From Haliclystus octoradiatus (Eukaryota; Cnidaria; Staurozoa; Stauromedusae; Haliclystidae): a stretch of 64,000 bases of DNA. The stretch is taken from the NCBI GenBank assembly GCA_916610825.1, contig OU744451.1:3394345-3458344 (forward strand), given 5' to 3'. Position numbers and translations under genes: made by a program. Shown piece by piece: positions 15,451-42,400 of this stretch (its first letter is position 1; every line of letters begins with the position of its first letter). Under the pieces are notes generated by a model. The model had not been told where the DNA came from, did no database searches, and saw nothing but the letters and a program-made list of their open reading frames with translations.

Positions 15451-18400
15451 GTAAGAAACAAATGTCTCATTAGATAATATTTTATTTTAATATTGTGTTT
15501 AATATTGTGATAAAAACAGATGCTTATTAGTTATATGTGTATTTTACCTACTGCTGGGCTTGACACTATTAAAACCACAACAACAACATCAATCGACTCC
15601 TTGTAATATCTGTTTCGCCTCCAAGAATTTCAGCACAACAGATCATTAAAAATGTTTCTCTAGCCTGTGTTACACGAATCTCAGTTTTAATGTAGAAAAT
15701 GGATAGAGGAACTTGCCTAAGATTTCATAATCAGATATTTCTCAAGATTAATATTTCTTTTTGATTTCTCTTTTCCAGGATCATCAACAATTAATTCCAG
15801 GTATACAGTAAAATTGAGTGCTTATGTGTTTATTTTCTAAATTATTAAATTATTTTAAATTCGAGAACAATAAATTGGAATCTGAAATATAAATAGGAAT
15901 TCTCATAAAACAGACGTGCATAATATCTTAGCATAAAATTTCCATCAAATTTAGTTTGAAATGATGAACTGTAACAAAATTTAAATATCAATATTAAGTC
16001 TTATAATGCTATAGACTCGTAAAATAGTTCTAAAAACAGTCCCCATAAAGTTAGAAGGAATTGAATTATTTGTAACAAAAGCCGATCAACCCTGCCAATT
16101 GGTAAGTGAATCGATAGAAAAGAAAACTTATATATTTATAGATTAATGTGATTATTGTTGTATTGAATATTTCATATAGTTCCAGGTGTATGGTCAGAAT
16201 GGATTACATCTGGGTCATGCGATGCAAGCTGTGGCGGAGGAGCTCAACTGAAAAATCGTAATTGTGATAATCCTCCTCCTTCAAATGGAGGTCCTACGTG
16301 TTCTGGAATCAATGAAAAGACGGTAACCTGCAATGAAAATCCTTGTCCAGGTAGGTCAGGCTTATGAGTTTGGAAATCTAAATACCAATTTTTATTCTTA
16401 TAATGCTATAGACTCGTAGAATCGTTTTGAAAACAGTCCCCATACAGTAAGATGGAGTCATTTATTTGTAACAAAAATTGGCTAACACTGCTTATTGGTA
16501 AGTAAATCGATTGAAAGGAATACTTCTCTATTTAAACTAATAATACTGTCTGTTTATATATCACTATATTTCGATTTTTCGATATTTTCTGTGTCTGTCG
16601 GCTACTTATGTACGTCTTACTGGCGACAAAATACAGATAATCCGTTCTCGGGAAATTATGCAAACATTTGTGTCTAGATAGCCGTGTACAGTAACAAATT
16701 TTTTGTATGAAAAGTATGGGTCTATGACGTTGTTTTTAAATAATATACTTCATCTGATTTTTTGCTTGGTATCATTGCATTGAAAAATTGAGGGATTTGA
16801 AACATTTCATAGGTCGATAATCTAGCGGGCAGCCAAATCGAATTCCAATTGAAATCTCCAGACCAAAAATACTTCGCTTTGAATTTAAAATCTGCATGTA
16901 AATATTTTTAAAAAGTGAAACTAGAAACTGAATCAGTTTTACGTTTATGACTAGTCTTAAATTCAAAATATAAACAATTCACTTTTAAAAAGGCTATTTT
17001 AATATATAATTTTTGAAAACACTGATAAAACAGCCTGTTTTGAAATCAACAATCTATCGCGTGGCAAGAAAACAAATGAAATTGCAAGAAATTTCAAAAT
17101 GACGTTGGCGTTCGACTAATTCGAAAAAATATTCAAAGTTCGAAGAGATTATCAGTCTACAGTCTAAAATTACAGAATTCAGAATCAATCAAGGCATTGG
17201 ACAAAACTGTTTTTATAATTAATTATTTAATATAAAAATATGAATCATTTGATTATGAGCGGGCAGGCTATTATTTTCAGATTTTTCTTTCATAATTAAC
17301 AAAGAAATTGTAAACATCGATTAAAATTAAAAATTTCATTTTATTGATTTGCTATAAGAATAAGACACATTATGTTACTACAATTTCGAAAATAAAAACA
17401 GCGGTGTCTTGTTCTTATCGTTGATCAACATTTAATAAAGTAAAATTCAGGTATGTATAATTTAACAAAATTAAATTGAATTGAGCGTATGATATGTGAT
17501 AAATAATAATTATAATCGTTCTAGCGATCAAAAATGGCTTTCAACTTTAGAAACACAAAAACATAATTCAATAACATTTTAAAATAGTTAATACAGTTTG
17601 GATGAGTGTAACAAACCTTGTGTTACAAAAATAAAAAGTGAAAAGGTTGCATATAATAGTCGATCATAGCAAACATTATTTATTAAAATACAACTTACAA
17701 TTTTCCAAATGAGATCCAAATAAAAACTACGAGCGGTGTAATCTCCGAACAACATTTATATACATAATTGCAGGTTCTCTAAGTTAATACACCAATCAAT
17801 AATAAGTTGACAATCAAACCCATAGAGATGGCGGCGACTTATGGCGGCAACGATTTGTAACGCTCCCGCTAAATCTGAATTTTGATTATTGTTTTATATG
17901 TTTTTACGCTCGGTTTTTGAATTGTTATAGATTTCAAAAACATATAGTACCCTAAATGGCGGAGATAGTTGATTGTATGCACTGTAATAAAGCAACATCA
18001 TCAAATGAATCTGTTGCATGATTTTCGTGTAAGGCAGTAATTCATTTTGCTTGCCTGAAACTTGCAAAATATGTTGATCCGTTATGTAAATCTGATAATA
18101 TGCAATGGTTTCAAAACATGCTGCAAAGTGAGTTTTTTCGTTTTTTATGTAAATCTTGTGTAGAAAATCATGCATCTGATAGCTTGCCATCTATTTCACT
18201 CATGTTAAAACGTGTAACAAATATCGAAAATAACCTGGAGGTTTTGGCAAAGCGGAAGACATCTAACCCCCCCCCCCCCCCTACAGTCGAAATCGTTTGC
18301 TGAAATTGTAGCATCAAACGTTACAACTGTTGTGCAAAAGGTAACGAAAGAATGTTTAAACTAAAATGACCAAGAAAATATCAGATCAAGGATTTTAATT

Positions 18401-21400
18401 TTTGCAAACGTTCCTTCAAAATTTGGTGAAAACAGCCCTTTTCAATATTTATCTTGTGACAAAGATATTGCGAAAGAAATCATAAATTGTATTGTTTCCG
18501 ATGGTGCTTCCATGGTATCAGACATAACACGTCTGAATAATAATAATTCCAAAACAAACACGTTGCCGCTTGATGATATTCCATTGTTACATTGTTAAAG
18601 GTTACCGTAGTAACAGCAGAAGCTCGGACGAAGATATTGATGGCAAAGAGATTACTAGAGCACAATCCAGAGTTTATAGAAATAAAAATTGATCCATGTT
18701 TTAGTTACCAATGTTGACAACAGAAAGAGCTACTACAACATGCAGTTCGACTACAGTATGAAAACCAACCGTCTGCTGATCAACCAACCGTTGCCTACAA
18801 CATAAAAACAAATCAACTCGGTGTTTATCAAATGAAGCTAGATAAAAATAGAAATGTTGTGCAATGGCAAACAGGCCATCTAAAATTACCGACTGACATT
18901 TTAGCAACTGCAGAGAAGCAACTTGCAGCAGAACGCAGTATCCATTACAACCGTGATCGCCCATCATCAAGCAATGCACAATGAATACCCCTTAGTGAAA
19001 CAAATAATACAGAACATATGAAAGACATTTTATGTATTTATTTCAATGCTACAAGCCTCGGGAACAAGCTACCTGAATTACATATGCTGATCTCCGAAGA
19101 AAAATACGATGTTATTGCTGTTACTGAGTCGTGGTTAAATATATCAATTGTTTGCGATGCAAATGTTTGTCCTTCCGATAATTATAATTTATTTCGTTGT
19201 GATAGAAAAGAACGGCGCGGTGATGGAGTTATAGTTTTAGTCAAATCGACATTGCAATGTTTGCATATTAATTCTGAAACATTATTTCATTATATGGAAT
19301 TTATTGCCCTAGACATTGTAGATACAGAAAACACTAAATTAAGACTTCTTACGATTTATCGACCACCAGATTATTCTGATTCTCAATCCGAACTGTTGCT
19401 TAATTTGATCGAATTTTTTTGTGATGTTGATCATCCTACAATTAGTTGTGGTGATTTCAACTTTGCAGATATAAACTGGACACTCCAAGCTATAACTGCT
19501 TCGTCGTCTACTTTTAAAGAATTTATCTCACTTTTTCAGGAAAATAGTCTCACGCAATTTGTTTCAGAGCCTACAAGAGATTCTGCAATCTTGGATATTC
19601 TACTTACCAACGATGGTTTCATTTTATTTGATGTATCCGTATCTGATCCATTCTCAACTAGTGATCATGCAGCTATCACTTTTTCGCTGCAATTATCTAG
19701 ACACCATCAAAGCATTCCCAAGCTTAATTTTCCATAGGCTGATTACCAACATATAAATCATCAATTATCTATTATCGATTGGATATTGTTTTTCTCCGCC
19801 TGTTTTTCTCCGCCCGCCTCCTACAATTATGCTATGACAAGTTCTTATTTCTTTTACATCATTTAATTGAATAATATGTTCCTGTTAAAATACCCCGTAA
19901 AGGTTCTAAGGGCTATCCTTTGTACATTCAACGTTTAATAAAGAAAGAAAAAACGTCTATGGCGCTGCAGAAACAGCAGCAACTATAATTAATATAATAA
20001 ATGCGCTCGCGATGTAAGGAAAGCCATACCAAAATACAAGATAAATGTAGAGTAAAAAACAATATCAAGCAACAACACTAGAGCTTTTTATTCGTTTGTT
20101 ATTAAATCCGATAAATTAGATTAAGGAAGAAAACCGGCATTGCTCCTTTAAAAGATATTGATGGGAACCTCGTACTCGATGATATCGACAAAGCCCATCT
20201 TTTGTCTCAACAATTTTGCAGCGTATTTACTATTGATAATGGGTTGCTACCATATTTTCCATCACGCACTTCTAATGAATTAACTGACATTCAATTTGAT
20301 ATTTATGATGTTATTGTGGCTATTCAAAATTTTAATCCAAAGTTATCATCGCCTGCCGACGAATTACCAGCATTTGTTATTAAGAACATTTCTAATACTA
20401 TTGCTGAACCATTAAGTTATATTTTTAAACTTTCCTTCATGTCAGGACAGTTTCCAGATGTGTGGAAGATTGCAATAATTTGCCCGATTTTTAAGAAACC
20501 TCCTGCTGAAATTTCAGCAAATTACCGACCGATTTCACTCACCTGCGTCTGTTGTCACCTAATGGAGCTTATCATAAAAGATAATTTATTAGATTTTCTA
20601 CTGGCAAATGGTCTTCTGACTGAAGAGCAGCATGGATTTCTAAAATACCGTTCAACAACAACCCAACTATAAGATACATTAGGAGACTGGACCATTGCGT
20701 TGGAACATAGTAAATGTATCGATGCAATTTATTTTGATCTAGCTAAAGCCTTTGATTCAGTTCTACATCAAAAACTTTTGCTTAAATTACAAGCATATGG
20801 TGTCAAAGGTCATCAAAGCCAATGGATCAAGGAATATTTGTCTTTAAGAAAACAATCAGTCAGAGTTAGAACTTGCTTTTTGGATGAACTGCCATGCGTC
20901 AGTGGTGTCCCGCAAGGGTACGTGCTCGGACATCTTTTATTTTTAATTTATGTGAATGATGTACCTGACAACATCAAGGTAACGACATGCAAATTTTTTG
21001 CTGATGACGTGAAGCTGTATACTACCTATAGTTTACATGAGAATTATTACGCTGAAGCAAATAGGTTTCAATCAGCTATTGATGCTTTCTTGGTATGGGA
21101 AAATACATGGCAACTTACAGTTGCAGCAGAAAAATGTGGTGCTTTACATATTGGAAGAAATAACCCTAACATTATATACCACATTGTCGATTATGAAATA
21201 CCACATGTAACAAACTCTGTCCGTGATCTTGGCGTTATGATATCAAAAGATCTTAAATTCTCACTTCAATGTCACAAAATAGTTTCAAAAGCGTATTGTG
21301 TATCAAACTACTTATTAGAATCTCTAAAATGGAATGATGCTACTCATCTTATATCAAAGCTTTTGTTTTATACGTGCGCCCATTTCTTCAAGAAGATATT

Positions 21401-24400
21401 ATTCTTGTCGAAAATGTCCAGCGTCGATACACTTAAAGGGTATTTATTTGTTGCTTTAATGACCATACAACAGACTACTTGTCACGCATTACAAATCTAG
21501 GACTTCAATCTCCTGAACAACGACGTAAAGAATTCGACCTACAGTTTTTTGTCGTATAATCCACAACATTATTGATATTGACCTTCCAGACGACTTAATT
21601 AAGATTCCTACTTCTACCAGAAGTCATGACACCAAATTCTATATGGACTTAGCAAATAGCAACCATCGCTATCATTACTATTTTAATCGCGTTGTTAGAC
21701 TTTGGAATGCTTTAGCAGAAGAAAGAGTTCATTCAACTTCATTAACAGTTTTCAAGCTACAGCTCTCATCTTACTTTATACCATAACACTATTTATTCTA
21801 TTCTATTTATATTTTATTACTCATACAACTAATTATCATTATAAAGTATTCAAATCATTTGTAAAAAATTTAACCATATATTTTAAGTGTTGCTACAGTA
21901 TAGCAACCTTGTATGTGTGATGCTTTGGAAAAAAAATTTCGGAATAAAGATATATATATTATAAAGATATTATATCGAAGGAGAATGTAAACCCGATAAG
22001 AATAAAATATAAATTGTCTTTTATTAGAAATAATTCTTGCAAAGAGAAATTATTTCAACTCGCGATCAAATGCATGGTAAAGTCGATTCATTTTCTATAT
22101 AAGTAAATCCTTTTCATCATACATCATAACATGAGCATTTAAATATTACCATCGGCTATGGTATTTATATATCTTTGTAGCTGCACTTAACATTTCCACT
22201 CTATAAATCATCGCGTCCGTTTCAATAAACTCTGAATAAATATGCATATCACGAATCTGGCAAAATGAGTGTTTTCATTTTTCTATAAAAAAAAACTAAT
22301 TTATTCATAATCGTCTTTTCTTTCATTCGACATCTGTAATGTATTATAAATAGCCCCTAGAAATATTGACAAAAACATGTAACATAATATCAATATCAAA
22401 TTACTATAGCGATTTATTATAGAATTTTATTTCATTTTAAAATAATGTTGATGCTCCCATTCTTGAAAGTTTGATAACAAGAAGCACGATGAGGCTCATT
22501 TTTCACATCTTCTTTTTACTTTTAAAATTCTATTTTCAACGAACTCTTAGTATTTTGATATTTTGCCATGAAAATCACAGGCCTACTTGCTAAGATTGTT
22601 AAGATCAAAAATATATAGGCAAATATACTATCATATAATGTTAGAACATATCAAGGATCTTCTACGATTTATTCTTGCAATTTGATTTTTTAACAGCAAT
22701 AACGCCATTCTACAATAGCGGAGCTTAACCCCGTCGATTTCAAGAAACTTATGAGAATACCAAACAACCGATAATTATTTAAAAATGGCATTATAAACTG
22801 GCAAGTATTAAATAGTAAAAAGCAAAAAAAACATTGAATATTTGTAGAGTCATATACAATTTCATTGAGTTACTGTTTCATGCAGTTTCTCAGTTGTTCA
22901 AAATATATCAAATGGCTTGCAGGAGAAAAATCTGAGCCAGTAAACAAACATGTTTAAAGTGTATCGAGATATATTGCACAAATTAACAATTTAAAACCAA
23001 TTTGCCAAACGTTTACTGTATTGATAATTGTGAAAACATAACATAACATAGATTCATTTCATCAATGCATCCCCTCATCCTTTTATGTCCAATTTTTGCA
23101 AGTTCTTAGATATAAGTATAAGCACTAAATTCCTGGCATAGAAAGGAAAGCTTTCGATAAACTACCAAAACCAAAGCATAGGCTAAATAAATTCAATCGC
23201 TAAAATTTTAAAATAATTAAACCATTTATCCAAATGAAAGCTAGGAACATCAGATAATCAGTTAGCTAAAAAGTTATCACAAATTCAATAATCTGCTCTT
23301 TTAAATAGGCAATTAACAAACATTCAGTCAATAAATCTGTCTTTGTTTCACCGACTATTTATTTCTTATGCATTTAAAACATAGTTGTCAACAATCATAT
23401 AAGTCCAAGGTTACATAAACTGGTGGTACCTTATACGGTTTTTTCAATGTATGAGCGAAAACAATGAAAAAAGAAACTATTTTTTTTAATTTGCGGTCTG
23501 TTCTTGTGCGGTCTTCATGACTGTGAAATGAAAATGCAACAATTCTATGGCACTTGTCACACACAAGTTTCATATAAGTCAGTTTTCCATAATGAATAAC
23601 ACACACACAGGAAAATCCATGTGCTTAAATCAAGAAAAAAATTTCTTAAAATAAGTGAAATTTTGCTTGAAATAAGAATAAATGTACTTGTCCACATAGG
23701 AAGCAAATATTCCTACCCTAGAACAAATTTGCTTGTTATATTTTCTTATTTTAAGCACAAATTTGCTTGACATATTATTCTCTTTTCCAGCTTAAATTTC
23801 TTGAAATGAGCAAATTTTTGCTTAAAACAAGACCCTTTCTGCTTTCATTTCTGAAGATAGTGTGCAGTCAGAATTGTTGGATTCTTGAAATAAGCATATA
23901 TATGCTTGAAATAAGCAAACATTTTCTTGAAATAAGCATATATTTTCGTAAAATAAGCATATATTTTCTTGAATTAAGATAATATTTGCTAGCGCATTTG
24001 GAACTACAAATCAAATATTCTCATCAGATTCTTGAAACAAGAACATATTTTCTTGAATTAAGATATTTTTACGATTGCTTATCAAAATGTTGCACATATA
24101 GTCTAATCAAAATATTGTCTATACAATGTTAATCATCATATTACAGCACAATATTAATTTTAGATTACATTAAACATTTAATTTAAATCAATTACGATCT
24201 ATAATAAAGTCACACTGGAACCCTGACGAGAGCCAGTGCAACAATTCAATCGTAACAGAGTAATAGTTTGGATTCATCAGCTGGTCATTGAAAAAGATCA
24301 GTCCATCATAATAATACCCAAACGTCAATAATAATTCCAGAATACAACTGCATGTATAGATAATTGTAAAATAACAGCAGAAGATCCAAATGTTTAAGAG

Positions 24401-27400
24401 AAAAGTTGTTGTATAGCTTGTAAGTAAATTTCATCTGCATTTTGTGTTATTACATCCAGCAAGTAAAATCATCAATATTCAACCACATGTAATGTTTGAT
24501 GGTTTGTGAGTGTAACATTTCTTTAACATATGAGTGTATTTATTGCTACAGTGTATTAAAGTATTGCTCGTCAATTTTGAGATCCAGGATTTTCACTCTG
24601 AAAAACAAATGCATATAACACTGATCAGATAAGTAATAAAATATTAAATCTACATTAAGATGAAAGTGACAACTAGCAAAACACAGTGAAATCAGTTGCC
24701 GGCAACGCCGGTGAAATTTTAAAAAAAGGATGTTGTGGACAATGTGCCAATGTAGACGATATTACTTTGCTTGGTCATAAAAAAATAGAAAATTAATTAC
24801 TATCGTTCTGATGATGTGTGAACAGAAGTAAAATAAAAACATGCAGATTTTATTCTAAGTTTCAAAAGAAGTAGGATAGATCCTAATTATCAAATTAAAA
24901 TTGTCACGAACCCTCAGTCAATATCACATATTATATTATGATACAATGCCTTATAAAGAGCAATATATTGACAAGCTTAAATCAGTAGCAAAAATGCAGT
25001 CAAATTCCAAAACCATTATTCTCTGCTATGTATGTTGCTGTGTATGTTTTATCGGAAAATATTGATAGCGGTTCATAGACCTTCTGGCCCATGAAGTCCT
25101 ATGAGCTGCCGACAGCAGCTGCACCTAAATTACACTCTTACATCATAACTGTTTACTAGGAACAAAAAAAACAATCATAGCAAAAACAATCTCAAGAAAG
25201 CTTGTATACATATCTATGTAAATTTATGATTAACAATGCAACATTCTATGCATTATGTTAATCATGCGATACACTATTTTTCAACAATAATAATACAGAC
25301 AATGCACAATATTAACGGCAATACTCATGATACCCAACATTAGGCCTACTGACTGTTCTGGAACAGTGATGTGAGAAAATTTGAATATTTTCGCATTTGA
25401 TAAAAATTTTAACCTAATAACAACAATTAAGTAGGCTGTAGTTTTGATTTTAAAGGATTGGAACATAATCAAATAAATCCCTGTCAATATCATAATTATT
25501 CAAAAAAACATTTTTCAATTCCCATGCTAGACTGTGCAGATACACACTGGTATACAAGAATAAGCAGAAAAGATATATGGATATGTTTAAAAAACATTCA
25601 AATAAAATTACAGCAGTGTATTATATTCTTGAACAAAATTTGATTGATAAGAAAACTTTTCAATTTCGGATTATTATTTAGCCGTAAATATTCTACAACA
25701 CAATGGAATTGCAAGCGCAATTTCGATAACTGAAATCCCCGCACATATGCAACCTGGCTTTTAAAATCTATTGACTATTTTGTAGTCATGTCTCTTTTAA
25801 ACAATTTCAGGAATGCGCAAATTTGGATAACTGCAATGAAAATTGTTGACAATTTTGACTAGCACAGCGGGTTCCACTGTACTCTGTGGGATTAACAGAT
25901 GAAGTTACTTCAAATTAGTATTTAGTAGTTCATGGTTACAGTGACCAGGAAGAAAAACACCGGCAGTCGTAACAAGCTTAATTTTGATAACCTCAAATGT
26001 ACACAGTTGACACAGTAGGAATGGATGTTTTTTAACAGTTTGTATGATTTCATATTATTTTTTTGACATGGAGGTAATATTACTTCCAGACGTAATATTA
26101 TTTTTGTATAAAAAGCTTCAAGTGTTACATTGACAATTCACTGATATTAACTGTGGATTATGGATTAACAAATTGTGAAAGTAATCTTGAAGATTAAATT
26201 TTCTTTTCATAAAGAGGAAATATCTCATTTTCATTCATAACAAACACGGCAAAAATCCGTACATACAGAGATGTAACTGAAAAGGTTAGGTCAATTGTTA
26301 CAAATGAAGAAGGAAAGCCATAATTTCACTAAATCATTGCAAAACATATGTATTGCATTGACTCTGGGTTGTTATTTCCAAACATATGTACAGTTTTCTG
26401 ATAATAAAAAAGAGAATTGTTGTGAATCGAAAAGACAGACCATTACTAATTTATGAAAATCAATTATATTCCTATTTCGTAAAATCCAGGCAACGTAGAA
26501 CATCATTCCCTGTCTTTTTATCTGTAGGTCTATTATGAGACATTTAACAATAAAACATTAATAGGCTTAACATCTATCTCAACGTAGAATTCAGGATATC
26601 TGATTTAAGCGAAAATTTGTAAAAAAAGAGAATCTGATTAGAATTCTATAGGCTATGGGTACTAGACTGGTCCAAAAAACATGAAAGTTTGAAATTTTAT
26701 CGGATCCATCGATTTTCTTGTTCAGAATGCTTTGAAAATAAGTTGTGCACAAATTTTATTGTAATTTGACATTGAGAAATGGGGTCCCAAGGCCCCTCTA
26801 AATTAATACGTAAAGCTAATGGGGAAAACGTTGATATTTTGCAAACGAATATTTTGATATCGTAGTTTGAAGAAAGTTTGTACTGTAACTCGAGAAGGTC
26901 ATTCTGTTGAACGGTGGCTGTTTTATTGACACAATATGTCGTTAACTTGTTATTAAAATGTTCATTCTTGCTACCGCCGCTTTACTCAGATAGCAGAAAT
27001 ATTACTCAGAAAGCTGTTCATTTTGTTTCACTCAGTTAAAATTTATAACAGAACTAGCTGCCATTTGGGAAATAAAACTTCGGAAACAAAGGAGGTAATT
27101 ACTTGAAACTCAAAATGTTTGAAAACTTTTAAAGAGCTATATCCCTTGCTACGTGACAAAGAAATAATTCGATGTCTTCATAAATTCAAGCTTGAACATG
27201 TAGCTGCTCACATGTGACTTCCGAAAATGTATTCGTAAAATTCTTCATGGATTACTGAACTTTATCATCGTTCGACGTTTGGAACAGTTGATCGCTCGTG
27301 CTTCACCGTTCTCCATGGCCTAAAATTTATTAGATGTTTTATAAATTCGAATATAAATTAATGAATATGAATATGAATATAAATAGGAATCGACATACGA

Positions 27401-30400
27401 ATATATGCGATATCTTTGTTTGATTTCCAACGTTTTATTCGAAACTTTATTTAAACTTTATTCCATATTTTGTTTTATCTAAATAATAGCGACCGTAACA
27501 AAAATGAATATCTCAATAACAACATCAATATGATCTGAATCTATAAAACAGTCACTGTTCAACAGAATGACCTTCTCGAGTTACAAACTTTCTTCAAACT
27601 ACGATATCAACGGCGGTGACACCTTTCACGGAAATATTTTTAGATTGACAGATTGACAGCAGACACTTATAGATTAATCCTTTTTTTCAGCAGAAGCCAC
27701 GTTTTTTATGCATCGTATTCAACCCCATAGTTTTAAGGCAATGATAAAGATTCAAACATTTAAATTAATAAATTCAGATTATTCAGATCATTACCTCCAC
27801 AGCCATGTGAGCAAATTTTAGAATATGTTTTCACAAAGATGACGTATTAGCGTTTGAAAAATATCAGCGTTTTCCCCATTAACTTTACGTATTAATTTAG
27901 AGGGGCCTTGGGACCCCATTTCCCAATGTCAAATTACAATAAAATGTGTGCACGCATTCTGAACAAGAAAATTGATGGGCCCGACAACATTTCAAACTTT
28001 CATGTTTTTTGGACCAGTCTAGTGGGTACATAATCTTTTGCGATTTCAGTAGCTTTGGAATCCTGAAATGGAGTGAAAGAGGGTTGAACGCGTAAATCTC
28101 TTTTTACAAAAAAAATGAGAAACGCAATTTTCAATTTCCGAAATAACTACTTGGAAGTTTAGGAATCCTGAATTACAAACGTAGTACAGTTAAACATATA
28201 CCATGCCTACCTATTTTTAATTGGGTTGCATAGTCAGGCAAATGGTGACAAAACAATAGCCATGAATGTTTTTCAAATTCCCATCCAGCAAATTCCTATA
28301 GTTTGTATAGAAAAACACAACAAACAAGTTAAGATAACAAACCTATGCAGACAGTAGAATATCAAGATGCAAATCGTAGGAGAATATGTGATGTTTTGAC
28401 AAGGACTATATAGGTTTAGAGGCTGAGAACTCTTCAGATAGAATGTATTACAACTAATGATTACAATAAATCAGATATGTTTTGAAAAATATCAGCAACA
28501 CCAATTAGGAATAGCTATTACAGAAAGATTCAGTATAGCCTCAATTCAATACAGAAAATGTCGAAGCTCATATAATAATCTGCTTTGTAGCTCTAAGTGG
28601 ATCACAAACTGTGCGTAAGTGGGTCACATCGTAACTTCCTTGTACTTCTAAGTTGAATAAAGGCATTTAATAAATTCAATTGTGTTTTCAAGATATCATA
28701 TCTAAATAAAACGATGACCAGGATATTTTATGTTTTTCAGTCTGATTGGGGAACATGGCAGATTGCAGTAAGTGGGTTACGGCTTGTAAACTCATTCTAA
28801 TCTACTTGATTTTTCATATCTGTTAAATTATTTTGAATAATAATGTTCCCCTTATCATTTTAAACAACTGGTAACAGAAATGAAGCCAAATGTTAAAATA
28901 ATTTTAAAGCCCTGAAAGAAAACACTCTCAACCTTGTAAGTGGGTCACGATGGAATTGCCCTGGGCTAGAAACAAACTTGAGCCAAACATAACCTTTGCA
29001 GCACATAATTAATACTTTTTTACTGTCAGATATAAACATAAGAAAAATTTAAATCTTGGAAAGTATAGAAATATAACAAGCATATTAGATTAGCCCAATT
29101 CGAACAGTCAGGCTGAGTTAGTCTGCTGATCTGAACTGATTGGTCGACAAAAATATCAGGAATCTTATGATCTTCTGAAAAGAAATTCGAAGCTGGGGCA
29201 GCTTACAAAATAGACATAAACTACTTGCCAATACCGCAGCATATCTTTAATAACGATGTGTTTATTTATCTAGAAGGCCTGTTATCCTATGCTTTCGAAT
29301 TAAGATGGTGGATTAGCTAGCAATGATATCTTCCAAGTTCAATAGCCTAGTATAGTATTGCAGCAGTGCCATAGCAGCAACATAAGTCTTGTTGATATAA
29401 AGAAGCAATTGAAAGAAAACAGCAAATAAACTTACCTATAACATGTCCACTGTCGTAAATCGTACGATGTCGTAAAATACGTATTGACCATGACCGCCAA
29501 AACATTTCACCGAATCTCGCATGTTCAGAGCAAGTAGAAAAACAAACCATATTTCGTTTTGAACGGTAAAGTTAAAGAATTCGTTCCAGTGATAAGTTGT
29601 TGTGATATCGCAGTACATCATTTTATTACTTTCATCGTAGGCTAAACGTTCCTTATGTATCGGGGAAACAAATACTTGTAGTTGAATTCAGTTTGTAAAA
29701 CCATGGTAAAACAGTAAAATTCGTAAACTGACTGAGCTTTTCGTTTTCACACTTTTTCAAATTGGGGTCTGGATGCAAGAACGCTCGGGATTGGCTGTAA
29801 AGAAACTTCAAGAGCTGCCGACTATCGAGCAGCCTGCATGCAGACCAAAAATACACTTCAGTGTTCCCTTTACGTCTGCGTGTAGGCTCACTACTGTCAT
29901 AGCGATTTTTAGACTTTACGAATATTATAAAGTGCCTATAGAAAGCTTCCCAATATTTTCCATGTCAGATCATTGTAGAAAAATATCCCGAATGGGTTCG
30001 AATAAATTATTTTGTGACATATTGATTTGTTTATAAGAAACAGGCATTGTTTAATATAGAATCTATACACATAGCACATAATTGGAATTTCAGCTAATCA
30101 TTAAATTTTATGAACATAAATCATATTATCTATTTCATATAGGCTAAACTAACTAACTACCATGAGTAATTTTGCTAAATATTGTTGACTAGTTTTGAAT
30201 TTATGAGCAAATACCATTGTGAATTATTATGTTGATATTAACAAAATCAGTACCCTTAGCATAATTGGAATTTCAGCTAATTATTGAATTTTTTCAAAAT
30301 AAATCATATTTTCTATTTCACATAAGCTGAACTAACCGCCATGAGTAATTATGTCAAATAATATTGAGAAACTTTGAATTTATTAGCAAATAGCATTGTG

Positions 30401-33400
30401 AATTATCGTGTTGATATTTACAAAATCATTACCCTTAGCATAATTGGAATTTCAGCTAATTATTGAATATTTTCAAAATAAATCACATTTTCTATTTCAC
30501 ATAAGCTAAACTAACTACCATGAGTAATTTTGTCAAATAATATGGAGAAGCTTTGAATTTATTAGCAATTAGCAGTGTGAATTATCGTGTTGATATTAAC
30601 TAAATCGATACCCTTAACATAATTGGAATTTCAAGTAATCATTAAATTTTTTCAACATCAATCATATTATCTATTTCACCTAGGCTAAACTAACTACCAT
30701 AAGCAATTTCGCTGAATAATGTTGAGAAATTTTGAATTTATTAGCAAATAGCATTGTGAATTATTGTGTTGATATTCACAAAATCAGTACCTTAGCATAA
30801 TTGGAATTTCAGCTAATTATTGAATATTTTCAAAATAAATCACATTTTCTATTTCACATAAGCTAAACTAACTACCATGAGTAATTTTGTCAAATAATAT
30901 TGAGAAGCTTTGAATTTATTAGTAAATAGCATTTTGAATTATCCTGTTGATATTAACTGAATTGATACCCTTAACATAATTGGAATTTCAGCTAATCATT
31001 AAATTTTTTCAACATCAACCATATAATCTATTTCACATAGGCTAAACTAACTACCATAAGCAGTTTTGCTGAATAATGTTGAGAAGCTTTGAATTTATTA
31101 GCAATTAGCATTGTGAATTATCGTGATGATATTAACAAAATCAGTACCCTTACCATAATTGGAATTCCTGCTAATTATTGAATTTTTTCAAAATAAATCA
31201 TATTATCTATTTCACATAAGCTAAACTAACTGCCATGAGTAATTATGTCAAATAATATTGAGAAGCTTTGAATTTATTAGCAAATAGCATTGTGAATTAT
31301 CGTGTTGATATTTACAAAATCAGTACCCTTAGCATAATTGGAATTTCAGCTAATTATTGAATATTTTCAAAATAAATCACATTTTCTATTTCACATAAGC
31401 TAAACTAACTGCCATGAGTAATTTTGTCAAATAATATTGAGAAGCTTTGAATTTATTAGCAAATAGCAGTTTGAATTGTTGTGTTGATATTAACTGAATC
31501 GATACCCTTAACATAATTGGAATTTCAGCTAATCATTAAATTTTTTCAAATTCAATCATATTATCTATTTCACCTAGGCTAAACTAACTACCATAAGCAA
31601 TTTCGCTGATAATGTTGAGAATTTTTATATTTATTACCAAATAGCATTGTGAATTATCGTGTTGATATTAACAAAATCAGTAGGCCTACCCTTAGCATAA
31701 TTGGAATTTCAGCTAATTATTAAATTTTTTCAAAATAAATCATATTTTCTATTTCACTTAAGCTAAACTAACTACCATGAGTAATTTTGTCAAACAATAT
31801 TGAGAATTTTCGAATTTATTAGCAAATAACATTGTGAATTATCGCGTTGATATTAACAAAATCAGTACCCTTAGCATAATTGGAACTTCACCTAATTATT
31901 AAATTTTTTCAAAATAAATCATATTTTCTATTTTACTTAAGCTAAACTAACTACCATGAGTAATTTTGTCAAACAATATTGAGAATTTTTGAATTTATTA
32001 GCAAATAACATTGTGAATTATCGTGTTGTTATTAACAAAATCAGTACCCTCAGCATAATTAGAACTTCAGCTGGTCATTAAATTTTTTAACATAAGTTAT
32101 ATTATCTATTTCACATAGGCTAACTACAATGAGTAGTTTTGTTAAATAATTTTTAAAAGTTTTGATTTTATGAGCAAAAAGCATTGTGGATCTTCGTGAT
32201 GATATTTTGTGAACTATTCTGGATTGCTAGATTAATTTGGGCTAAATCTGTTATCTAAGACGTAAGATAATAGAAACTTCAATCAATATAAAAGTTTGCT
32301 GTATATTATAATTTCTACTTCAAGATCCATTATCTAACTGTTAAACAGTGTAGAATATTGAATTTATGAGCCAAGAGCACAAAACAGTATGAATTTATAG
32401 GGCTAATTTTAACAAAATTGATACTCTATATTTTTATAAATCAAATACATGACAGCAAGCAAATTTAAACTAGGCTAGCAAATTTCAATAATTCAAGCAA
32501 TTTTAGTCTAGCGTAGAAAATTTTTCTTGATTCAAGAAAATATATTCTTTATGAAATATTCACACCACTTATTTTCTTGTTTTAAGAAAATGTGTTGCTT
32601 AAAACAAGAATAAAAGCCTACCCTAGCAAATGGATTTTCCTGTGCACAAGAACATAGAAAATATTGCTTAAAGATAAGAATCAATGACTATGTAAGAAAA
32701 CGATTTTAAGCATCCATTCTTTTATTTCCAAGAAGAGAAATCCGAGAGAAATATAAATTTCTCGATATCAATTTTTCCTCCCAGCTTTTAGTTGATTTAA
32801 AAAAGGCAAGTGTACAGCTCTCTACTCAGCTTTCTTTCTGTGACATCATGAAAATAGGAGAATTAAATACTTGATCATGGATTGTAAAGATCAAAACATG
32901 CTCTGAAAAAACGTCACCAACAGTCACAAATCGGGGCTGGCTTAGTTCTAACCCAAATAGTTCATACTTTCTGTGAACTATGCTCTGATAGCACCACTCG
33001 AATCAATTCAGGAAAAACCTCGAAGGTGAAAATCACTCGCCGAAGCGGCTCGTAATTTTCTGATGCCTTCTCGTTTTCTCCTTACGTTCCTCCCTTGATG
33101 CTATCAGAGCATAGTTCACGGAAAGTATGAACTATTTGTTTAATATTATCAGAGGTTATCACTTATATACATAATACTGTCTGTTTATATATCACTATAT
33201 TTCGATATTTTGATATTTCTGTGTCTGTCCGCGACTTATGTACGTCTTACTGGCGATATAATACGGATAATCCGTTGTCGGGAAATTATGCAAACATTTG
33301 TGTCGAGATAACCGTGTACAGTAACAAATTTGTTGTATGAAAAGTATGGGTCTATGACGTTGTTTTAAAATAATATACTTCATCTGATATTTTATTTGAT

Positions 33401-36400
33401 ATCATTACATTAAAAAAATCAGAGATTTTGAAAAATTTCATAGGTCGATAATCTAGCGGGCAGCCAAATCGACTTCAAATTGAATTCTCCAGAACAAAAA
33501 TATTTTGCTTTGAATTTAAAAGCTGCGTGAAAATTGTTTGAACAAGTGAAACTTGAAACTGAATCAGTTTTATGATAATTAAAACAATACGAAATACTGA
33601 ATTACATTGAATTACCAGTATAACTAGGCCAGACAAAATATGTTTTGAAATCAAAGAAACGTAGACATATTTCATGTAGTGTTGATATCAGCAATACATA
33701 TAGCGCGGCACAAACGCTATGAAATTAAAGAGACTTGAGGTCTTAATTTAATTTATTAATGAAACAAAATGCCGTTCATTACTTTTCTCAAAATCGAGAT
33801 AAAACATTTCACTTTAAACAAGGCTATTTTGATATATAATTTGTGAGAACACTGAGCAAACAATCTGTTTTGAAATGAATAATCTATCGCGGGGCTTAAA
33901 AACAAATTAATTTGCAAGAATTTTCAAATTGACGTTGGCGTTCGACTAATTCGAAAAATATTCAAAGTTCGAAGAGATTATCTGTCTACAGTCTAAAATT
34001 AAAGAGTTTAGAATTAATCAAGGCATTGCACAAAAGTATTTCTATAATTTATTATTTAATATAAAAAAACGAATCATTTGGTTTTGAGCAGCAAGGCTTT
34101 TATTTTCAGATTTTGCTTCCATAATTAACGAAGGAATTATAGGCATCGATTAAAATTAAAATTTCATTTTGTTAACTTGCTATACGAATAAGACACAGTA
34201 TGTTACTACAGTTTCGAGAATAAAAATAGCGGTGTCTTGTTATTATCGTTGATCAACATTTAATAAAGTTAATTTCAGGTATATCAAATTCAACAAAGTT
34301 AAATTAAATTGAGCGTATGATTTGTAATAAATATTAATAATTATAATATTTTCAGCGTTCAAAATTTTTGCTTTGAAATTAAAAGCACAAAACCATAATT
34401 CAAAAACATTTTTAAATAGTTAATACAGTTTGGATGAGTGTAACAAACCTTGTGTTACCAAAATAAAAAGCGAAAAGGTTGCATGAAATAATCGATCATA
34501 GCAAACAATATTTATTAAAATACAACTTACCATTTTCCAAATGAGATCCAAATAAAAACTATACGAGCGGCATAATCTCCGAACAGCATTTAAATACATA
34601 ATAGCGGGTTCTCTGAGTTAATACACCAATCAATAAAAGTTAACAACCATATTTTATCGAAGGAGAACGTAAGCCCGATAAGAATAAATATATAAATTGT
34701 TTTTTATTCGAAATAATTCTGACAAAAATGATCATTTCATATCGCGATCAAATGCAAGGTAAAGTAGATTCATTTTCTATATAAGTAAATCCTTTTCATC
34801 AGACATCAGACATCATAGCATGAGCATTTAAATACTACCATCAGCTATGGTATTTTATATCTTTGAAGCTGCACTAAACATTTCCACTTTATAAACCATC
34901 GCGTCCATTCAAATAAATTCTGAATAAATATGCATATCAAGAATCTGGCAAAATGAGTTGTTTTCGTATTTCTATCAAAATAATTAATTTATTCATAATC
35001 GTCTTTTCTTTCATTCGACATCTGTAATGTATAGCGCGTAGAAATATTGACAACAAGATGTAACATAATATCAATATCGAATTAGTATAGCGATTTATTA
35101 TAGAATTTTATTTCATGTTAAAAGAATGTTGATGCTATTATTCTGGAAAATTTGATAACAAGAAGCACTATGAGTTCAACTTTTCACATCTTTTGTTTAC
35201 TTTTAAAATTTTATTTTCAACGAACTCTTAGCATTTTGATATACTGCCATGAAAATCACAGGCCTACTTGCTGAGATTGCAAAGATCAAAAATATATAGG
35301 CTCATATACTATCATATCATAATATTTTCAGATTATATATATAATTTGAAATTCAATACACGCGCTGTCGCCTTGTTCAATAATACTTTGTCGAAGCAGT
35401 AGGTTTGTTGATTAGTACAGTCCAAGCGCGTACTACAGTAAGTAAGGCGTTGGCTCATTGGTTAATGCTCTGGTCTTACAATATCAGGGTCTTCAATTCA
35501 AATCCGTCAGTCGGCAATTTTTATCAACGATTTTTCTGATTTTTTTTAATATGAAGCAGTAAATCTTTGTTAATTAACACAATATATCGTTTGATCATGT
35601 TAATAACAGAAATTAGTGGACCATGTGTCTTGTCAAAGCTAAATTAATTTAATACTGAATATATTGCATGCAATGCCACGAGTTTGACTGGCCACACCTT
35701 GACGGCGTTATTTTGTGAACACCACATTAGTGTTGTATATATTGCAATAAAGACTTATGAATTCGAACCGAATGCGATTCGATCATATCGGGTCAGATTC
35801 GGGTTAATATTTTAGGTCTTCGGATCGGTTCGGATTTGAAGTGATTTTTTATGGATAGTTTCAGATTTCGAAAATTGACTGAGTATTTGTAATTTATAAT
35901 AATTAATGTGTTTTGGCTTCCTTTCAGCACATAAAATATAGTTTTTCTATGTAGACAAAGCTACATTAAATTATACATTTCAATCGATTCAATTGATGTG
36001 AAATAAATTAAATTTTTATTTAATGGAATGATTAAGATGTATTGATTAATGCTACATCGTTTCAATGCGTATTGTGTCTCATGCTCTCCTTCAGAGTTCA
36101 TACTCCGTATTATACAGCGATAGTCAGCTTAGTCAATTGTTTAATTATCAGTGATCTGAAAGTTTTATCATAGAAGGTCCATAATGGACCACAACACTCA
36201 TTGCTAGTATATATATATTGCAATAAAGATTTGTGAATCCAAACAAAACGCGATCCGATCTTATCGTGTCGGAGTCAAATTGATATTTTAAGTCTTCGGA
36301 TCGGATCAGATTTGAAGTGCTTTTCTATTGATGATTTCATATTACGAAATTTGACTGATTATTTGTAATTTGTAATGATTAATGTGTTCATGGATTCCTT

Positions 36401-39400
36401 TCAGCGCATAAATTAAAGTTTTTCTGTGTAGATATAGCTACTTTAAATGTATTCATTTGACCGGTGGCCTCTATACATTTCAATCGACTCAATTGATGTG
36501 AAATGAATTGAATTTTTATAAAGGAAATGATTAAGATATCTTGAGTAATTTTAAAACGTTTCAATGCGTTTTGTTTCTCATGTTCTAAACCAAAGTTCAC
36601 TCTCCGTATTATACAGCGATATTAAGCTTAGTCAAATTGTTTAATTAATAGTGATCTGACCTGAAATTTTATTACACATGTTCCATTATGGACCAACACT
36701 AATTGCTAGTATATTTATAGATGTATGTGATTATTGTTGTATTGAATATTTGATATAGTTCCTTGAGTTCATACTCCGTATTATGCAGCGATAGTCAGCT
36801 TAGTCAATTGTTTAATTATAAGTGATCTGAAAGTTTTATCATAGAAGGTCCATAATGGACCACACTCATTGCTAGTATATTCATAGATGTATGTGATTAT
36901 TGTTTTATTGAATTTTTCATATAGTTCCTGGTGCATGGTCAGATTGGTTTACATTTGGGTCATGCGATGTTAGCTGTGGTGGAGGAACTCAACCGAGAAA
37001 TCGTAATTGTGACAGTCCTCCTCCTTCTTATGGAGGTCCTACGTGTTCTGGAATCAATGAAGAGACGGTAATCTGCAATGAAAATCCTTGTCCAGGTTAG
37101 TCAGGCTTATGAATTTGGAATTCTAAATACCAATATTTATCCTTATATATAATGCTATAGACTCACAGAATAGTTCTGAAAACAGTCCCCATAAAGTAAG
37201 ACAGAATCTATTATTTGTAACAAAAATCGGCTAACACTACTTATTTGTAAGTAAAATGATAGAAAAGAATACTTATCTACTTATATTAAAAATACTGTCT
37301 GTTTATATATCACAATATTTCTATCACTTATATACATAATACTGTCTGTTTATATATCACAATATTTCTATATTTCTATATTTCTGTGTCTGTCCGCGAC
37401 TTATGTAAGTCTTACTGGAGATATAATACGGACAATCCGTTGTCGGGAAATTATGCAAACATTTGTGTCGAGGTAACCATGTACGTAACAAATTTGTTGT
37501 ATGAAAAGTATGGGTCTATGACGTTGTTTTAAAATAATATACTTCATCTGATATTTTATTTGATATCATTGCATTAAAAAATTCAGAGATTTGAAAACTT
37601 TCATAGGTCGATAATCTAGCGGGCAGCCAAATCGACTTCAAATTGAAATCTCCAGAACAAAAATATTTTGCTTTGAATTTAAAAGCTGCGTGTAAATTGT
37701 TTGAACAAGTTAAACTTGAAAATGAATCAGATTTATGATAATTAAAACAATACGAAATACTGAATTACATTGAATTACCAGTATAACTAGGTCAGACAAA
37801 ATATGTTTTGAAATCAAAGAAACATAGACCTATTTCACGTAGTGTTGATATCAGCAATACATATAGCGCGGCACAAACGCTATGAAATTAAAGAGACTTT
37901 AGGTCTTAATTTAATTTATTAATGAAACAAAATGCCGTTCATTACTTTTCTCAAAATCGAGATACAAAACATTTCGCTTTTAAAAAGGCTATTTTGATAT
38001 ATAATTTGTGAGAACACTGAGCAAACAATCTGTTTTAAAATGAATAATCTATCACGGGGCATAAAAACATATTAACTTGCAAGAATTTCAAAATGACGTT
38101 GGCGTTCGACTAATTCGAAAAATATTCAAAGTTCGAATAGATTATCTGTCTACAGTATAAAATTATAGAGTTTAGAATCAATCAAGGCATTGCACAAAAG
38201 TATTTCTATAATTTATTATTTAATATAAAAATATGAATCATTTGGTTATGAGCAGGCAGGCTTTTATTTTCAGATTTTGCTTCCATAATTAACGAAAGGA
38301 ATTGTAAGCATCGATTAAAATTAAAATTTCATTTTGTTGACTTGCTATCAGAATAAGACACAGTATGTTACTACAGTTTCGAGAATAAAAATAGCGGTGT
38401 CTTGTTATTATCGTTGATCAACATTTAATAAAGTTAATTTCTGGTATATCAAATTCAACAAAGTTGAATTGAATTGCGCGTATGATTTGTGATAAATAAT
38501 AATAATTATAATTTTTCAACGTTCAAAAATGGATTTCAACTTTAAAAACAGAAAAGCATAATTCAAAAATATTTTTCAATAGTTAATACAGTTTGGATGA
38601 GTGTAACAAAACCTTGTGTTACAAAAATAAAAAGCGAAAAAGGTTGCATGAAATAATCGATCATAGCAAACAATATTTATTTAAGTACAACTTACCATTT
38701 TCCAAATGAGATCCAAATAAAAACAATACGAGCGGAATAATCTCCGAACAACATTTAAATACATAACACCGGCTTCTCGGAGTTAATACACCAATCAAGA
38801 ATAATTTAACAACCATATTTTATCGAAGGAGAATGTAAGCCCGATAAAAATATAAAATATAAATTGTCTTTTATTCGAAATAATTCTGACAAAAATGATC
38901 AGTTCATATCGCGATCAAATGCAAGGTAAAGTAGATTCATTTTCTATATTAGTAAATCTTTTCATCAGACATCATAACATGAGCGTTTAAATACTATCAT
39001 CGGCTATGGTATTTTATATCTTTGAAGCTGCACTAAACATTTCCACTCTATAAACCATCGCGTCTGTTTCAATAAATTCTGAATAAATATGCATATCACG
39101 AATCTGGCAAAATGAGTTGTTTTCATTTTTCTATCAAAATATTTAATTTATTCATAATCGTCTTTTCTTTCATTCGACATCTGTAATGTATTATAAATAG
39201 CGCGTAGAAATATTGACAACAACATGTAACATAATATCAATATCGAATTAGTATAGCGATTTATTATAGAATTTTATTTCATTTTAAAAGAATATTGATG
39301 GTATTATTCTGGAAAATTTGATAACAAGAAGCACTATGAGGCCAACTTTTCACATCTTCTTTTTACCTTTAAAATTTTATTTTCAACGAACTCTTAGTAT

Positions 39401-42400
39401 TTTGATAGACTGCCATGAAAATCACAGGCCTGCTTGCTGAAATTGCAAAAATCAAAAGTATATAGGCTCATGTACTATCATATCATAATATTTTCAGATT
39501 ATATATATAATTTGATTTTCAATTACACGCGCGTGTGCCGGCCTTGTTCAATAATACGTTGTCGTAGCAGTAGGTTTGTTGATGACGTCAGTCAAAGCGC
39601 CTTTAATAATAAGTAAGGCAGTGACTCATTGGTTACTGCTCTGGTCTCACAATATCAAGGTCGTCAGTTGAAATCCGCCCTTCGGCAACTTTTTATCAAC
39701 GGTTTTTCTTTCTTTTTTTTAATATGAAGCAGTAAATCATTGTTAATTAACAAAAGATATCGTTTGATCATGTTAATAACAGAAATTAGTGGACCATGTG
39801 TCTTTTCGGAGCTAAATCAATTTATTATTGAATATATTGCATGCAATGCCACGAGTTTGACCCGCCACACCTTGACGGCGTTATTTTGTAACACCAGTGA
39901 TGTGAGAATTACTTTTGAAAAGTAATAAATTACACTACAAATTACTTTTACTCGAAAGTAACTAATTACATTACTAATTACTTCAGCCAAAAAAGTAATT
40001 GATGACAATTACTAATTACTTTCCCAAAAAAAGTAATCAATTACTGATTACTCCATGATTACTTTAACTTGTGAAACAAAAGATATTGCCTCCCTTTCGA
40101 TAATGGTATGTCTCGTTTTGACAATCATGGCGGCCATCTTGTTTTTTTACGAAAGGAAACGATAGATTCAATAAATTTATTAATTTAATACTGGTGACTG
40201 CAGCAGAAGATAAATTGATGTTGAAAACTTTTTAATAAAGTTGACAAATAAATGGTTTCATTTGATTTATCAAAATGGTTTATTTTTGTAGGATCAATCT
40301 ATTCATATAGCCATAAATTTTATATCATCTTTTCAAATTCGAAAGTCACTCAAATAAAAAGTGAAAAACTATTGAATTTATTGATCAACAGAACAATGTC
40401 AGAACAGAGAAGAATAGGTTATGGGATAGGGTTTATTGGTCATATATCACACAATTCACCTGGTTTGAATAGCTCTCGTAAAAGATGCAAATAATGTGAG
40501 ATTTCATCGCAGACAGAACAATAAAAAGCGGAACTTCGTGACAGAAACGCCTTTGAAAATTATCACAAGACAACAAAGCAAATATTTTGTAATCATAAAA
40601 GTAATTTGAAAAGTAACGTCAATTACTTTCTCTCAAATAATACTAGTTACTTCAAAAAGTAATCAATTAGATTACTTATTACTTTTCTCAAAAAAGTAAC
40701 TATAATTACTCCTAAAATTACTCCAAAAGTAACGAGTAACGAGTAACGCGTTACTTTAGTAACGAGTATTTACAACACTGTGTAACACCACATTAGTGTT
40801 GTATATATTGCAATAAAGATTTATGAATTCGAACCGAACGCGATCCGATCGTATCGGGTCAGAGTCGGGTTGATATTTTAGGTCTTCGGATCGGATCGGA
40901 TTTGAAGTGATTTTTTATGAATAATTTCAGATTTCGAAATTTGACTGAATATTTGTAATTTATAATAATTAATGTGTTCTGGCTTCCTTTCAGCACATAA
41001 AATAAAGTTTTTTCTATGTAGATATAGCTACGTCAAATTATACATTTCAATCGACTCAATTGATTTGAAATAAATTAAATTTCTATTGAAGGAATGATTA
41101 AGATGTATTGATTAATGCTACATCGTTTCAATGCGTATTGTGTCTCATGTTCTCCTCCAGAGTTCATACTCCGTATTATACAGCGATAGTCAGCTTAGTC
41201 AATTGTTTAATTATAAGTGATCTGAAAGTTTTATCATAGAAGGTCCATAATGGACCACACTCATTGCTAGTATATTCATAGATGTATGTGATTATTGTTT
41301 TATTGAATATTTCATATAGTTCCTGGTGCATGGTCAGATTGGTTGACATCTGGGTCATGCGATGTTAGCTGTGGCGGAGGAACTCAACTGAGAAATCGTA
41401 ATTGTAACAGTCCTCCTCCTTCTTATGGAGGTTCTACGTGTTCTGGAATCAATGAAGAGACGGTAATATGCAATGAAAATCCTTGTCCAGGTTAGTCGGT
41501 CTTATGAATTTGGAAATCTAAATACCAATATTTATCCTTATATATAATGCTATAGATTCGTAGAATAGTTCTGAAAACAGTCCCCATAAAGTAAGACAGA
41601 ATCTATTATTTGTAACAAAAATCTGCTAACACTACTTATTTGTAAGTAAATTGATAAAAAAGAAAACTTTATATTCATAGATGTATTTGATTATTGTTTT
41701 ATTGAATATTTGATATAGTTCCTGGTGCATGGTCAGATTGGTTGACATCTGGGTCATGCGATGTTAGCTGTGGCGGAGGAACTCAACTGAGAAATCGCAA
41801 TTGTGACAGTCCTCCTCCTTCTTCTGGGGGTCCTACGTGTTCTGGAATCAGTGAAGAGACGGTAATCTGCAATGAAAATCCTTGTCCAGGTTAGTCGGGC
41901 TTATGAATTTGGGAATCTAAATACCAATATTTATCTTTATATATAATGCTATAGACTCGTAGATTAGTTCTGAAAACAGTTCCCATAAAGAAAGACAGAA
42001 TCTATTATTTGTAACAAAAATCGGCTAACACTACTTATTTGTAAGTAAATTGATAGAAAAAAAAACTTATATATTCATAGATGTATGTGATTATTGTTTT
42101 ATTGAATATTTCATATAGTTCCTGGTGCATGGTCAAATTGGTTGACATCTGGGTCATGCGATGTTAGCTGTGGCGGAGGAACGCAACTGAGAAATCGTAA
42201 TTGTGACAGTCCTCCTCCTTCTTATGGGGGTCCTACGTGTTCTGGAATCAGTGAAGAGACGGTAATCTGCAATGAAAATCCTTGTCCAGGTTTGTACACA
42301 TGAATCTAAAATTTGAAATATTTATTCTCATAATGCTGTAGACTAGTATAATAGCTCTAATACAGTCCCAATTAAGTTAGAAAAAATGATATTTATAACA

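Follow-up and report, generated by a model that had tools for sequence, protein, structure and literature searches.

Two introns of a single TSP1 gene in the stalked jellyfish Haliclystus octoradiatus contain Helitrons at the same nucleotide, which raises the question of whether one insertion was copied along with the exons or one site was entered repeatedly. The 64,000-nucleotide stretch analysed here (the window) includes five similar TSP1 exons, A–E, each 171 nt long and lying within exon-plus-intron modules of about 400 bp. All are on the plus strand: A at 16180–16350 (phase 1-1; Pfam TSP_1, 1.8e-8), B at 36925–37095 (TSP_1, 5.6e-12), E at 42119–42289 (TSP_1, 5.3e-12) and, placed by module alignment, C at 41320–41490 and D at 41719–41889. 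A first-pass annotation had described the surrounding introns as copies of one module, and the intron modules of the window do align with one another. Module A diverges from B, C and D by 11.6–13.4%, and B, C and D diverge among themselves by 4.5–5.7%. The A/B intron is 20.6 kb long, the B/C intron 4.2 kb, and the C/D and D/E introns about 228 bp each. Splice-site sequences are preserved, so the visible effect of the insertions is intron growth.

Module alignment places the Helitron ends precisely at ACTTA|TATAT, as had been proposed, and reveals empty paralogous sites. The unoccupied sites expected upstream of exon A (16130–16131, plus strand; ACTTA|TATATTTATAG, ACTTA|TATATTTATA) and in the D/E intron (42069–42070, plus strand; ACTTA|TATATTCATAG, ACTTA|TATATTCATA) are both present; they fit the target rule described below, A|T-N6-ATA, and are unoccupied all the same. 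The near-match anticipated around 41668 in the C/D intron lies at 41669–41670 (plus strand; ACTT|TATATTCATAG, ACTT|TATATTCATA), where a single missing A breaks the rule. Genome-wide, a pattern joining Helitron end and intron (up to 3 mismatches) occurs at 3 places, all inside the window, and this pattern search found no other paralogous TSP1 array with an occupied site. In the arrays L006 and L008, script-picked introns pass through this point without a Helitron; ACTTA|TATAT is found in three introns of L006, and the sequence differs there in L008.

The B/C insert, H2, is a 3,995-bp Helitron spanning TC at 37276 to CTAG at 41270 (plus strand; A|TC...CTAG|TATATTCATA), precisely at the homologous intron point, with no duplicated target in the alignment with empty modules. 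Its 3′ hairpin, GGTCCATAATGGACC (41242–41256, plus strand), lies 10 nt before CTAG. H2 contains a hAT-like insert (39897–40778, no strand assigned) with the direct repeat GTAACACCA on both sides; the insert is missing from another copy, H3. Further downstream is H4, a 5′-truncated Helitron copy (44604–47798, plus strand).

The best explanation of these sequences is a high-copy, non-autonomous Helitron family with the organization TC...hairpin...CTAG, and the unit is found genome-wide, beyond this TSP1 gene. The genome search for the 3′ end that the first-pass annotation had called for returned 533 exact ends, of which 529 are followed by T, 4 by A and none by C or G. Among 40 distinct 3′ ends that were fetched, 4 of them from the window itself, 39 adjoin T. 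On the 5′ side, A is the last base of the flank in all 21 copies of a filtered sample, which excludes copies outside the search expression and copies preceded at short distance by other family repeats or CTTAT. The 3′ hairpins of H2 (z −2.7), H3 and a truncated end described below fold better than shuffled sequences (z −2.7 to −3.2 overall), and that of the old copy H1 folds no better than shuffles (z −0.5). No target-site duplication is seen at the TSP1 sites, for which paralogous empty sites are available. Helitron identity, TC...CTAG boundaries, an A|T target and the lack of duplication, all predicted from the sequence, thus hold. For a Rep/helicase gene, no stop-to-stop open reading frame of at least 90 aa lies within H2 or H3; Helitron_like_N has 54 matches in the genome (Pfam, 6.8e-50), and 20 fetched loci of this kind with 1.5-kb flanks contain no match to the family. 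The TT target described for the Helentron/HINE group (PMC4067079) is not seen, the target here being A|T. The family is new among Helitrons and its target rule is notable; the system itself is of a known kind.

The earlier description of an approximately 3-kb TC...CTAG insert in both introns was right about the ends in B/C and wrong for A/B, where the insert is a nest of about 20.3 kb around the old Helitron H1. The 5′ part of H1 (16527–17816) starts with TC after ACTTC, one change from ACTTA with C as the host base. It is interrupted by a LINE (17817–21966; Exo_endo_phos and RVT_1, APE/RT type) at a point where H2 and the family copy L100 are continuous, and the middle part follows at 21967–22650 (right edge approximate). 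The interval 22640–23604 is mostly unmatched by the 23 places scored of 2,313 (matches start at query position 951 or later), a result of little weight given how few were scored. Beyond it lie part of another dispersed repeat (23605–30070, no strand assigned) and a 179-bp satellite (30077–32206). The repeat is high-copy and at least 6.5 kb long, mapped only as far as 30070, and is 95–98% identical at 22 other places among the best 23 of 2,313 first-look candidates. H3, a complete 3,049-bp Helitron with hairpin (33159–36207; A|TC...CTAG|TATATATATA), precedes the H1 3′ part (36208–36709), which ends in CTAG|TATATTTATA at 36709 and belongs to a subfamily other than that of H2. The idea that H3 and its left neighbour form one captured unit is unsupported, as the neighbour from 23605 is a separate high-copy repeat. 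H1 is followed by a 54-bp copy (36710–36763) of the 3′ end of the intron in the module entered by H1, including a second acceptor-like AG (36757–36758) and the first 5 exon bases. Finally, a truncated 3′ end of the young subfamily, with hairpin (36765–36875), adjoins the intron end before exon B by its CTAG, at the same A|T as H1 and H2. The LINE, the Helitron segments and the intron-end copy are all on the plus strand.

The short end at 36765–36875 may have been copied with the surroundings of exon C after the arrival of H2, so that Helitron and exon moved together at this one place, and we give this reading a little under an even chance. The block shared between B and C has 2 differences in its first 171 bp versus 17 in the remaining 339, which speaks for such a transfer. 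However, exons C and E share an intron end, and two unrelated genome copies match the Helitron portion just as closely, so that a third insertion which was afterwards truncated fits equally well. Sequence comparison did not yield proof of copying from B/C, because the family is too uniform.

For the two longer elements, trees show H1 and H2 as separate insertions. In the tail tree, the H1 3′ end lies in another clade than that of H2 (SH-aLRT 100), with 94% identity to its nearest outside copy and 85% to H2. AU tests reject one clade for H1 and H2 both for the 3′ ends (p 2e-13) and for the 5′ parts (p 0.0013); the same A|T was therefore used at least twice. The tail trees (43 and 39 rows) excluded loci repeating the window and double-cut rows. 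The 5′ evidence for separate ancestry is, on these alignments, weaker than the 3′ evidence. A first head tree, with outside rows all fetched by H2 queries, grouped H1, H4 and H2. Addition of L100, whose head is about 91% identical to H1 and H2 and about equally close to both, changed this grouping, and a head grouping of H1 with L100 is neither established nor rejected (p 0.117). Pieces shorter than about 1,150–1,200 bases were dropped from the head trees; the second kept 35 of 40 rows and dropped L033, which had formed a long branch in the first.

Separate sequences could also arise at a single old insertion, if one co-duplicated Helitron stood in both introns and ectopic gene conversion, with a young copy elsewhere as template, afterwards replaced the whole of H2. 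Templates would be plentiful, the genome having many similar copies, but the conversion must replace the element to its outermost bases at both ends and leave both intron flanks untouched. The ends of H2 carry young-family bases at positions where H1 differs, and we regard this course of events as very improbable. Another alternative is a single Helitron entry followed by unequal crossing-over that duplicated exon and Helitron into A/B and B/C. The identical nucleotide and family in both introns, the first head tree and a 510-bp stretch that comprises a Helitron 3′ end and module sequence, with 96.3% identity between B and C, speak for it. The different subfamilies of the H1 and H2 3′ ends and the rejection of one clade speak against it, and the truncated 3′ end ahead of exon B differs at 1 position from H2 and likewise at 1 from two unrelated genome copies. 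We consider it very improbable overall; for H1 and H2, spread of one insertion by exon duplication is rejected by the trees and AU tests, which instead place separate Helitrons at one hot spot, a point missed in the first-pass annotation.

Relative divergence does lend some support to the wider proposal that exon duplication and Helitron insertion were interleaved in this gene, whereas the trees argue against co-copying of H1 and H2. The private branches of H1 (0.058 tail, 0.085 head) and H2 (0.014 tail, 0.029 head), read beside the module divergences, would fit an order in which module A split off, H1 inserted, further modules were duplicated and H2 then arrived; gene conversion could distort both sets of values.

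The most likely reason for the recurrent landing site is that the TSP1 spot fits a lopsided target preference of the family. ATA stands at +8 to +10 after 311 of 544 exact 3′ ends (two are the window's own, and the total includes segmental copies), against a background of 4–9%: 296 of the window's 7,478 A|T sites and 8.7% of 1,591 AT-rich sites. In 38 fetched flanks, a sample without window copies and without ends outside the search expression such as L011 (CTAG|C), 24 show the triplet at +8 (next-best offset, 11). With self-insertions and simple repeats removed it is at +8 in 12 of 21. The relatives analysed are the best matches to queries from the window (of 1,242–1,476 candidates, 40 were scored) and so form a non-random sample. 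The preference is not absolute: 233 of the 544 ends have no ATA at +8, nor do H4 and L100, and the two TSP1 sites upstream of A and in D/E obey the rule yet are empty. At many 3′ ends the adjoining sequence is a portion of the 5′ repeat of this same family (e.g. CTAG|TATTTCTATA), consistent with insertion of the family into its own 5′ repeats; such self-insertions make up 32 of 100 listed 3′ ends and contribute part of the ATA excess. With a 10-base profile built on the 38 flanks from outside the window, the TSP1 site comes out on top among 34 A|T in the D/E intron and among 25 upstream of A, and another site ranks first in C/D; with an 8-base profile, the D/E site is third and a neighbour 2 bp away first. 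The least probable account is that the same site was used twice by chance with no preference beyond A|T, since although Helitrons require A|T alone and the 226-bp intron has 34 of them (about 1 in 34), the measured preference lifts two-draw agreement to 0.19 (D/E), 0.21 (C/D) and 0.54 (upstream of A).

Overall, we think it probable that an asymmetric-target Helitron family re-used one hot spot in the duplicated TSP1 intron. The family inserts at an A|T step, probably by the usual rolling-circle route, and leaves no duplicated target. It favours sites with T as the first downstream base and ATA at +8 to +10, and the transposase itself may read the +8 triplet. One A|T in the repeated intron obeys this rule, and the module copies therefore present the same hot spot. 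It has been used at least twice, by the old H1 in A/B and the young H2 in B/C, and the truncated third 3′ end abuts it as well. Duplication of the exon modules would thus have created targets, some of which Helitrons filled later and at different times. Identical transposon positions in paralogues need not imply shared ancestry. The paralogous introns provide a natural replicate test, in which the same site is occupied, empty or disabled by one missing base.

Helitron target choice is mostly described, in passages of PMC4778049, PMC4067079, PMC7492417, PMC5738225 and PMC5876387, as A|T in AT-rich DNA. The several hundred insertions here reveal a second, sharply defined position, +8 to +10, and yield a concrete biochemical prediction on how a rolling-circle transposase holds its target. 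According to extracts of PMC4778049, the bat Helibat/Helraiser elements have TC...CTRR ends and an A|T target without duplication, and 46 of 1,751 new Helraiser insertions lay outside AT. The present family shares with them 5′-TC and CTAG-3′ termini, a 3′ hairpin, insertion at A|T with no duplicated target and an AT-rich flank that is strongest on the 3′ side, but the Helraiser text describes general AT-richness within about 20 bp rather than a discrete ATA at +8 to +10. Tandem Helitron arrays are reported from bat, silkworm and plants (PMC4067079 and PMC5876387, in part) as head-to-tail copies about one element length apart, a likeness to the copies here; unlike those arrays, many 3′ ends here join a partial 5′ repeat of the family. 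Such junctions are consistent with entry into a copy already in place rather than with read-through or with circle joints (CTAG|TC). A parallel comes from barley, whose Helitrons were reported in 2017 to favour an AAA that begins 8 bp downstream of the A-T step entered; the authors propose a contact one helical turn away (PMC5738225, in excerpt). The offset and asymmetry are the same, with ATA here in place of the plant AAA, and the excerpt has no description of recurrent use of one paralogous site as seen in the TSP1 introns. By analogy, the asymmetric rule may be common to plant and animal Helitrons. Evenly balanced in our judgement is the broader proposal that plant and animal transposases share a code, A|T plus A-W-A one helical turn downstream (+8 to +10), that makes recurrent landing sites, leads copies to pile up within 5′ repeats of related elements and, time after time, adds length at one intron position shared by duplicated exons.

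The window (C7:3394345–3458344, within a 262-Mb genome) contains five similar 171-nt TSP1 exons, one after another: A (16180–16350), B (36925–37095), C (41320–41490), D (41719–41889) and E (42119–42289). All three exons tested (A, B and E) match Pfam TSP_1, with E-values of 1.8e-8 to 5.3e-12. The exon and its intron form a module of ~400 bp (repeat period 399), and related sequence is also present at other places on contig C7 and on contigs C2 and C5. Module A differs from B, C and D by 11.6–13.4%, and these three differ among themselves by 4.5–5.7%. Module E is 12% from B, C and D over its whole length because the left half of its intron has diverged; outside that half the difference is 2.7–4.1%. 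A 117-bp tandem array of ~18 copies, strongly T-rich on the + strand, occupies 10730–12875.

The array introns share a site that reads ACTTA|TATATT(C/T)ATAG or a near variant. As the first-pass annotation described, this site is uninterrupted upstream of exon A (16130/16131) and in the D/E intron (42069/42070), and the near match that it placed around 41668 in the C/D intron is one A short at 41669/41670. Downstream of exon E the site reads ACTTATAATTAATAC and is divergent after that, and a second array at C7:3.365–3.368 Mb has ACTTA|TATAT uninterrupted in three introns. In the B/C intron, the Helitron copy H2 (3,995 bp) begins with TC at 37276 and ends with CTAG at 41270, precisely within the A|T step, in agreement with the boundaries proposed for it; no target duplication is seen at the array insertion sites. 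H1, the copy in the A/B intron, begins with TC at 16527, preceded by ACTTC, and its CTAG at 36709 adjoins TATATTTATAG. An additional Helitron 3' end (36765–36875) adjoins TATATTCATAG immediately upstream of exon B. A genome-wide search for a Helitron 3' end joined to the intron end (≤3 mismatches) returned these three array places only. At 36710–36763 there is an extra copy of the intron end, in which a TATAG resembling a 3' splice site is followed by only ~5 exon bases; this copy may serve as a decoy acceptor ahead of exon B.

The A/B interval is a nest of elements. H1 is split into segments 16527–17816, 21967–about 22650 and 36208–36709 by a LINE that carries APE and RT domains and by a second block, and L100, a relative elsewhere in the genome, is uninterrupted across both breaks. 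The second block includes, among its contents, a dispersed repeat from 23605, a 179-bp satellite and H3, a complete Helitron of 3,049 bp (33159–36207). The dispersed repeat is at least 6.5 kb long and occurs, 95–98% identical, at 22 other places among the 23 that were scored out of 2,313 candidates. The region that it occupies together with its neighbours (approximately 23605–33158) has inner inverted repeats at 26661–28023; beside the dispersed repeat lie the satellite array (30077–32206) and a hairpin (32954–33138). The insert length of ~3 kb proposed earlier holds for H3 and for the basic element, but not for the nested A/B interval. H2 contains a hAT-like non-autonomous insert of ~880 bp (39897–40778) with CAGTG/CACTG ends and GTAACACCA on both sides.

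Comparison of their ends indicates that H1 and H2 are best read as having inserted separately into the same base step. The 3' end of H1 falls in a group with copies from other loci (SH-aLRT 100, highest identity 94%) and is 85% identical to that of H2, which itself reaches 98.6% identity with outside copies. Trees constrained to unite H1 and H2 are rejected for both the 3' ends (p-AU 2.0e-13; 39 tails) and the 5' parts (p-AU 0.0013; 35 heads). The tails outweigh the heads as evidence because an earlier head tree without L100 placed H1 and H2 together with H4, a 5'-truncated copy downstream (44604–47798), and because the L100 head is nearly equally close to H1 and H2. The private branches are 0.058 (tail) and 0.085 (head) for H1, and 0.014 and 0.029 for H2. 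Together with the module divergences, these lengths suggest that the splitting off of A was followed by H1, then by later module duplications and finally by H2, provided that gene conversion left the clock undisturbed.

That the same base step was hit repeatedly in paralogous introns is most likely explained by a sharp target rule, in which A|T is followed by ATA at +8 to +10. ATA stands at +8 in 24 of 38 outside flanks and at any other offset in at most 11; with self-insertions and simple repeats removed, the count at +8 is 12 of 21. Across the genome, ATA occupies +8 to +10 after 311 of 544 exact 3' ends, a count that takes in two window ends and any segmental copies, compared with 296 of the 7,478 A|T sites of the window (4.0%) and 8.7% of 1,591 AT-rich A|T sites. 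Of 100 listed flanks, 32 come from insertions into 5' repeats of the family itself; if this 32% share applies to all 311 and only those are removed, an estimated ~211 of 444 (48%) retain ATA at +8. At the TSP1 site, +1 is T and +8 to +10 read ATA. A 10-base profile of the 38 outside flanks gives it first place both in D/E, among 34 A|T sites, and upstream of A, among 25, and an 8-base profile, which includes just the first base of the triplet, ranks it third in D/E. With the 10-base profile, the probability that two draws agree is 0.19 in D/E, 0.21 in C/D and 0.54 upstream of A. In the C/D intron, one A short, this point no longer conforms to the rule.

The family occurs well beyond the TSP1 gene, as had been anticipated. 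Its 3' end, expected always to abut T, does so in 529 exact cases across the genome; the exceptions are four ends followed by A, and none is followed by C or G. Preliminary candidates numbered 1,242 and 1,476 for the two ends, with 40 scored for each. At the 5' end, ~47-bp repeats make up a variable array (37276–37371 in H2, and likewise in other copies), so the exact 5' start can move by one repeat. Many 3' ends read CTAG|TATTTCTATA or similar and some 5' flanks end in ...TATATCACAA|TC, joints that would be the expected trace of insertion into the 5' repeat of a resident copy, at a position which itself conforms to the +8 rule. Among the 100 of 529 places listed, 14 neighbouring same-strand pairs of 3' ends lie 2,996–3,070 bp apart, and no opposed-strand pair lies within 2.8–3.3 kb. 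Head-to-tail stacks with ~3.03-kb spacing are present at, for example, C1:26711548–26720647 and C2:21076388–21082537; the flanks suggest that copies inserted into 5' repeats of others already in place.

H2 and H3 contain no ORF of ≥90 aa. Helitron_like_N genes are present in the genome, and eight loci (L070–L077), seven of equal score (169.6 bits), have such frames long and open and are probably a recently active autonomous group. None of 20 fetched Helitron_like_N pieces matches the TSP1-intron family.

The family elements are ordinary Helitrons in kind, and the informative part is the reuse of a single base step by insertions in paralogous introns, together with the sharp +8 rule. A literature search found no second published case of this rule, and one may still be in print. 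Passages of PMC4778049 give an AT target for Helraiser (46 exceptions in 1,751), with flank AT-richness greatest on the 3' side, and tandem Helitrons are recorded from bats, silkworm and plants in passages of PMC4067079 and PMC5876387. Barley Helitrons are reported in PMC5738225 to favour AAA beginning 8 bp downstream of the insertion site, the same +8 offset on the assumption that the two registers are equal. The mechanism is already known in outline, and the +8 target rule, in a genome that is probably animal, seems to be a genuine addition.
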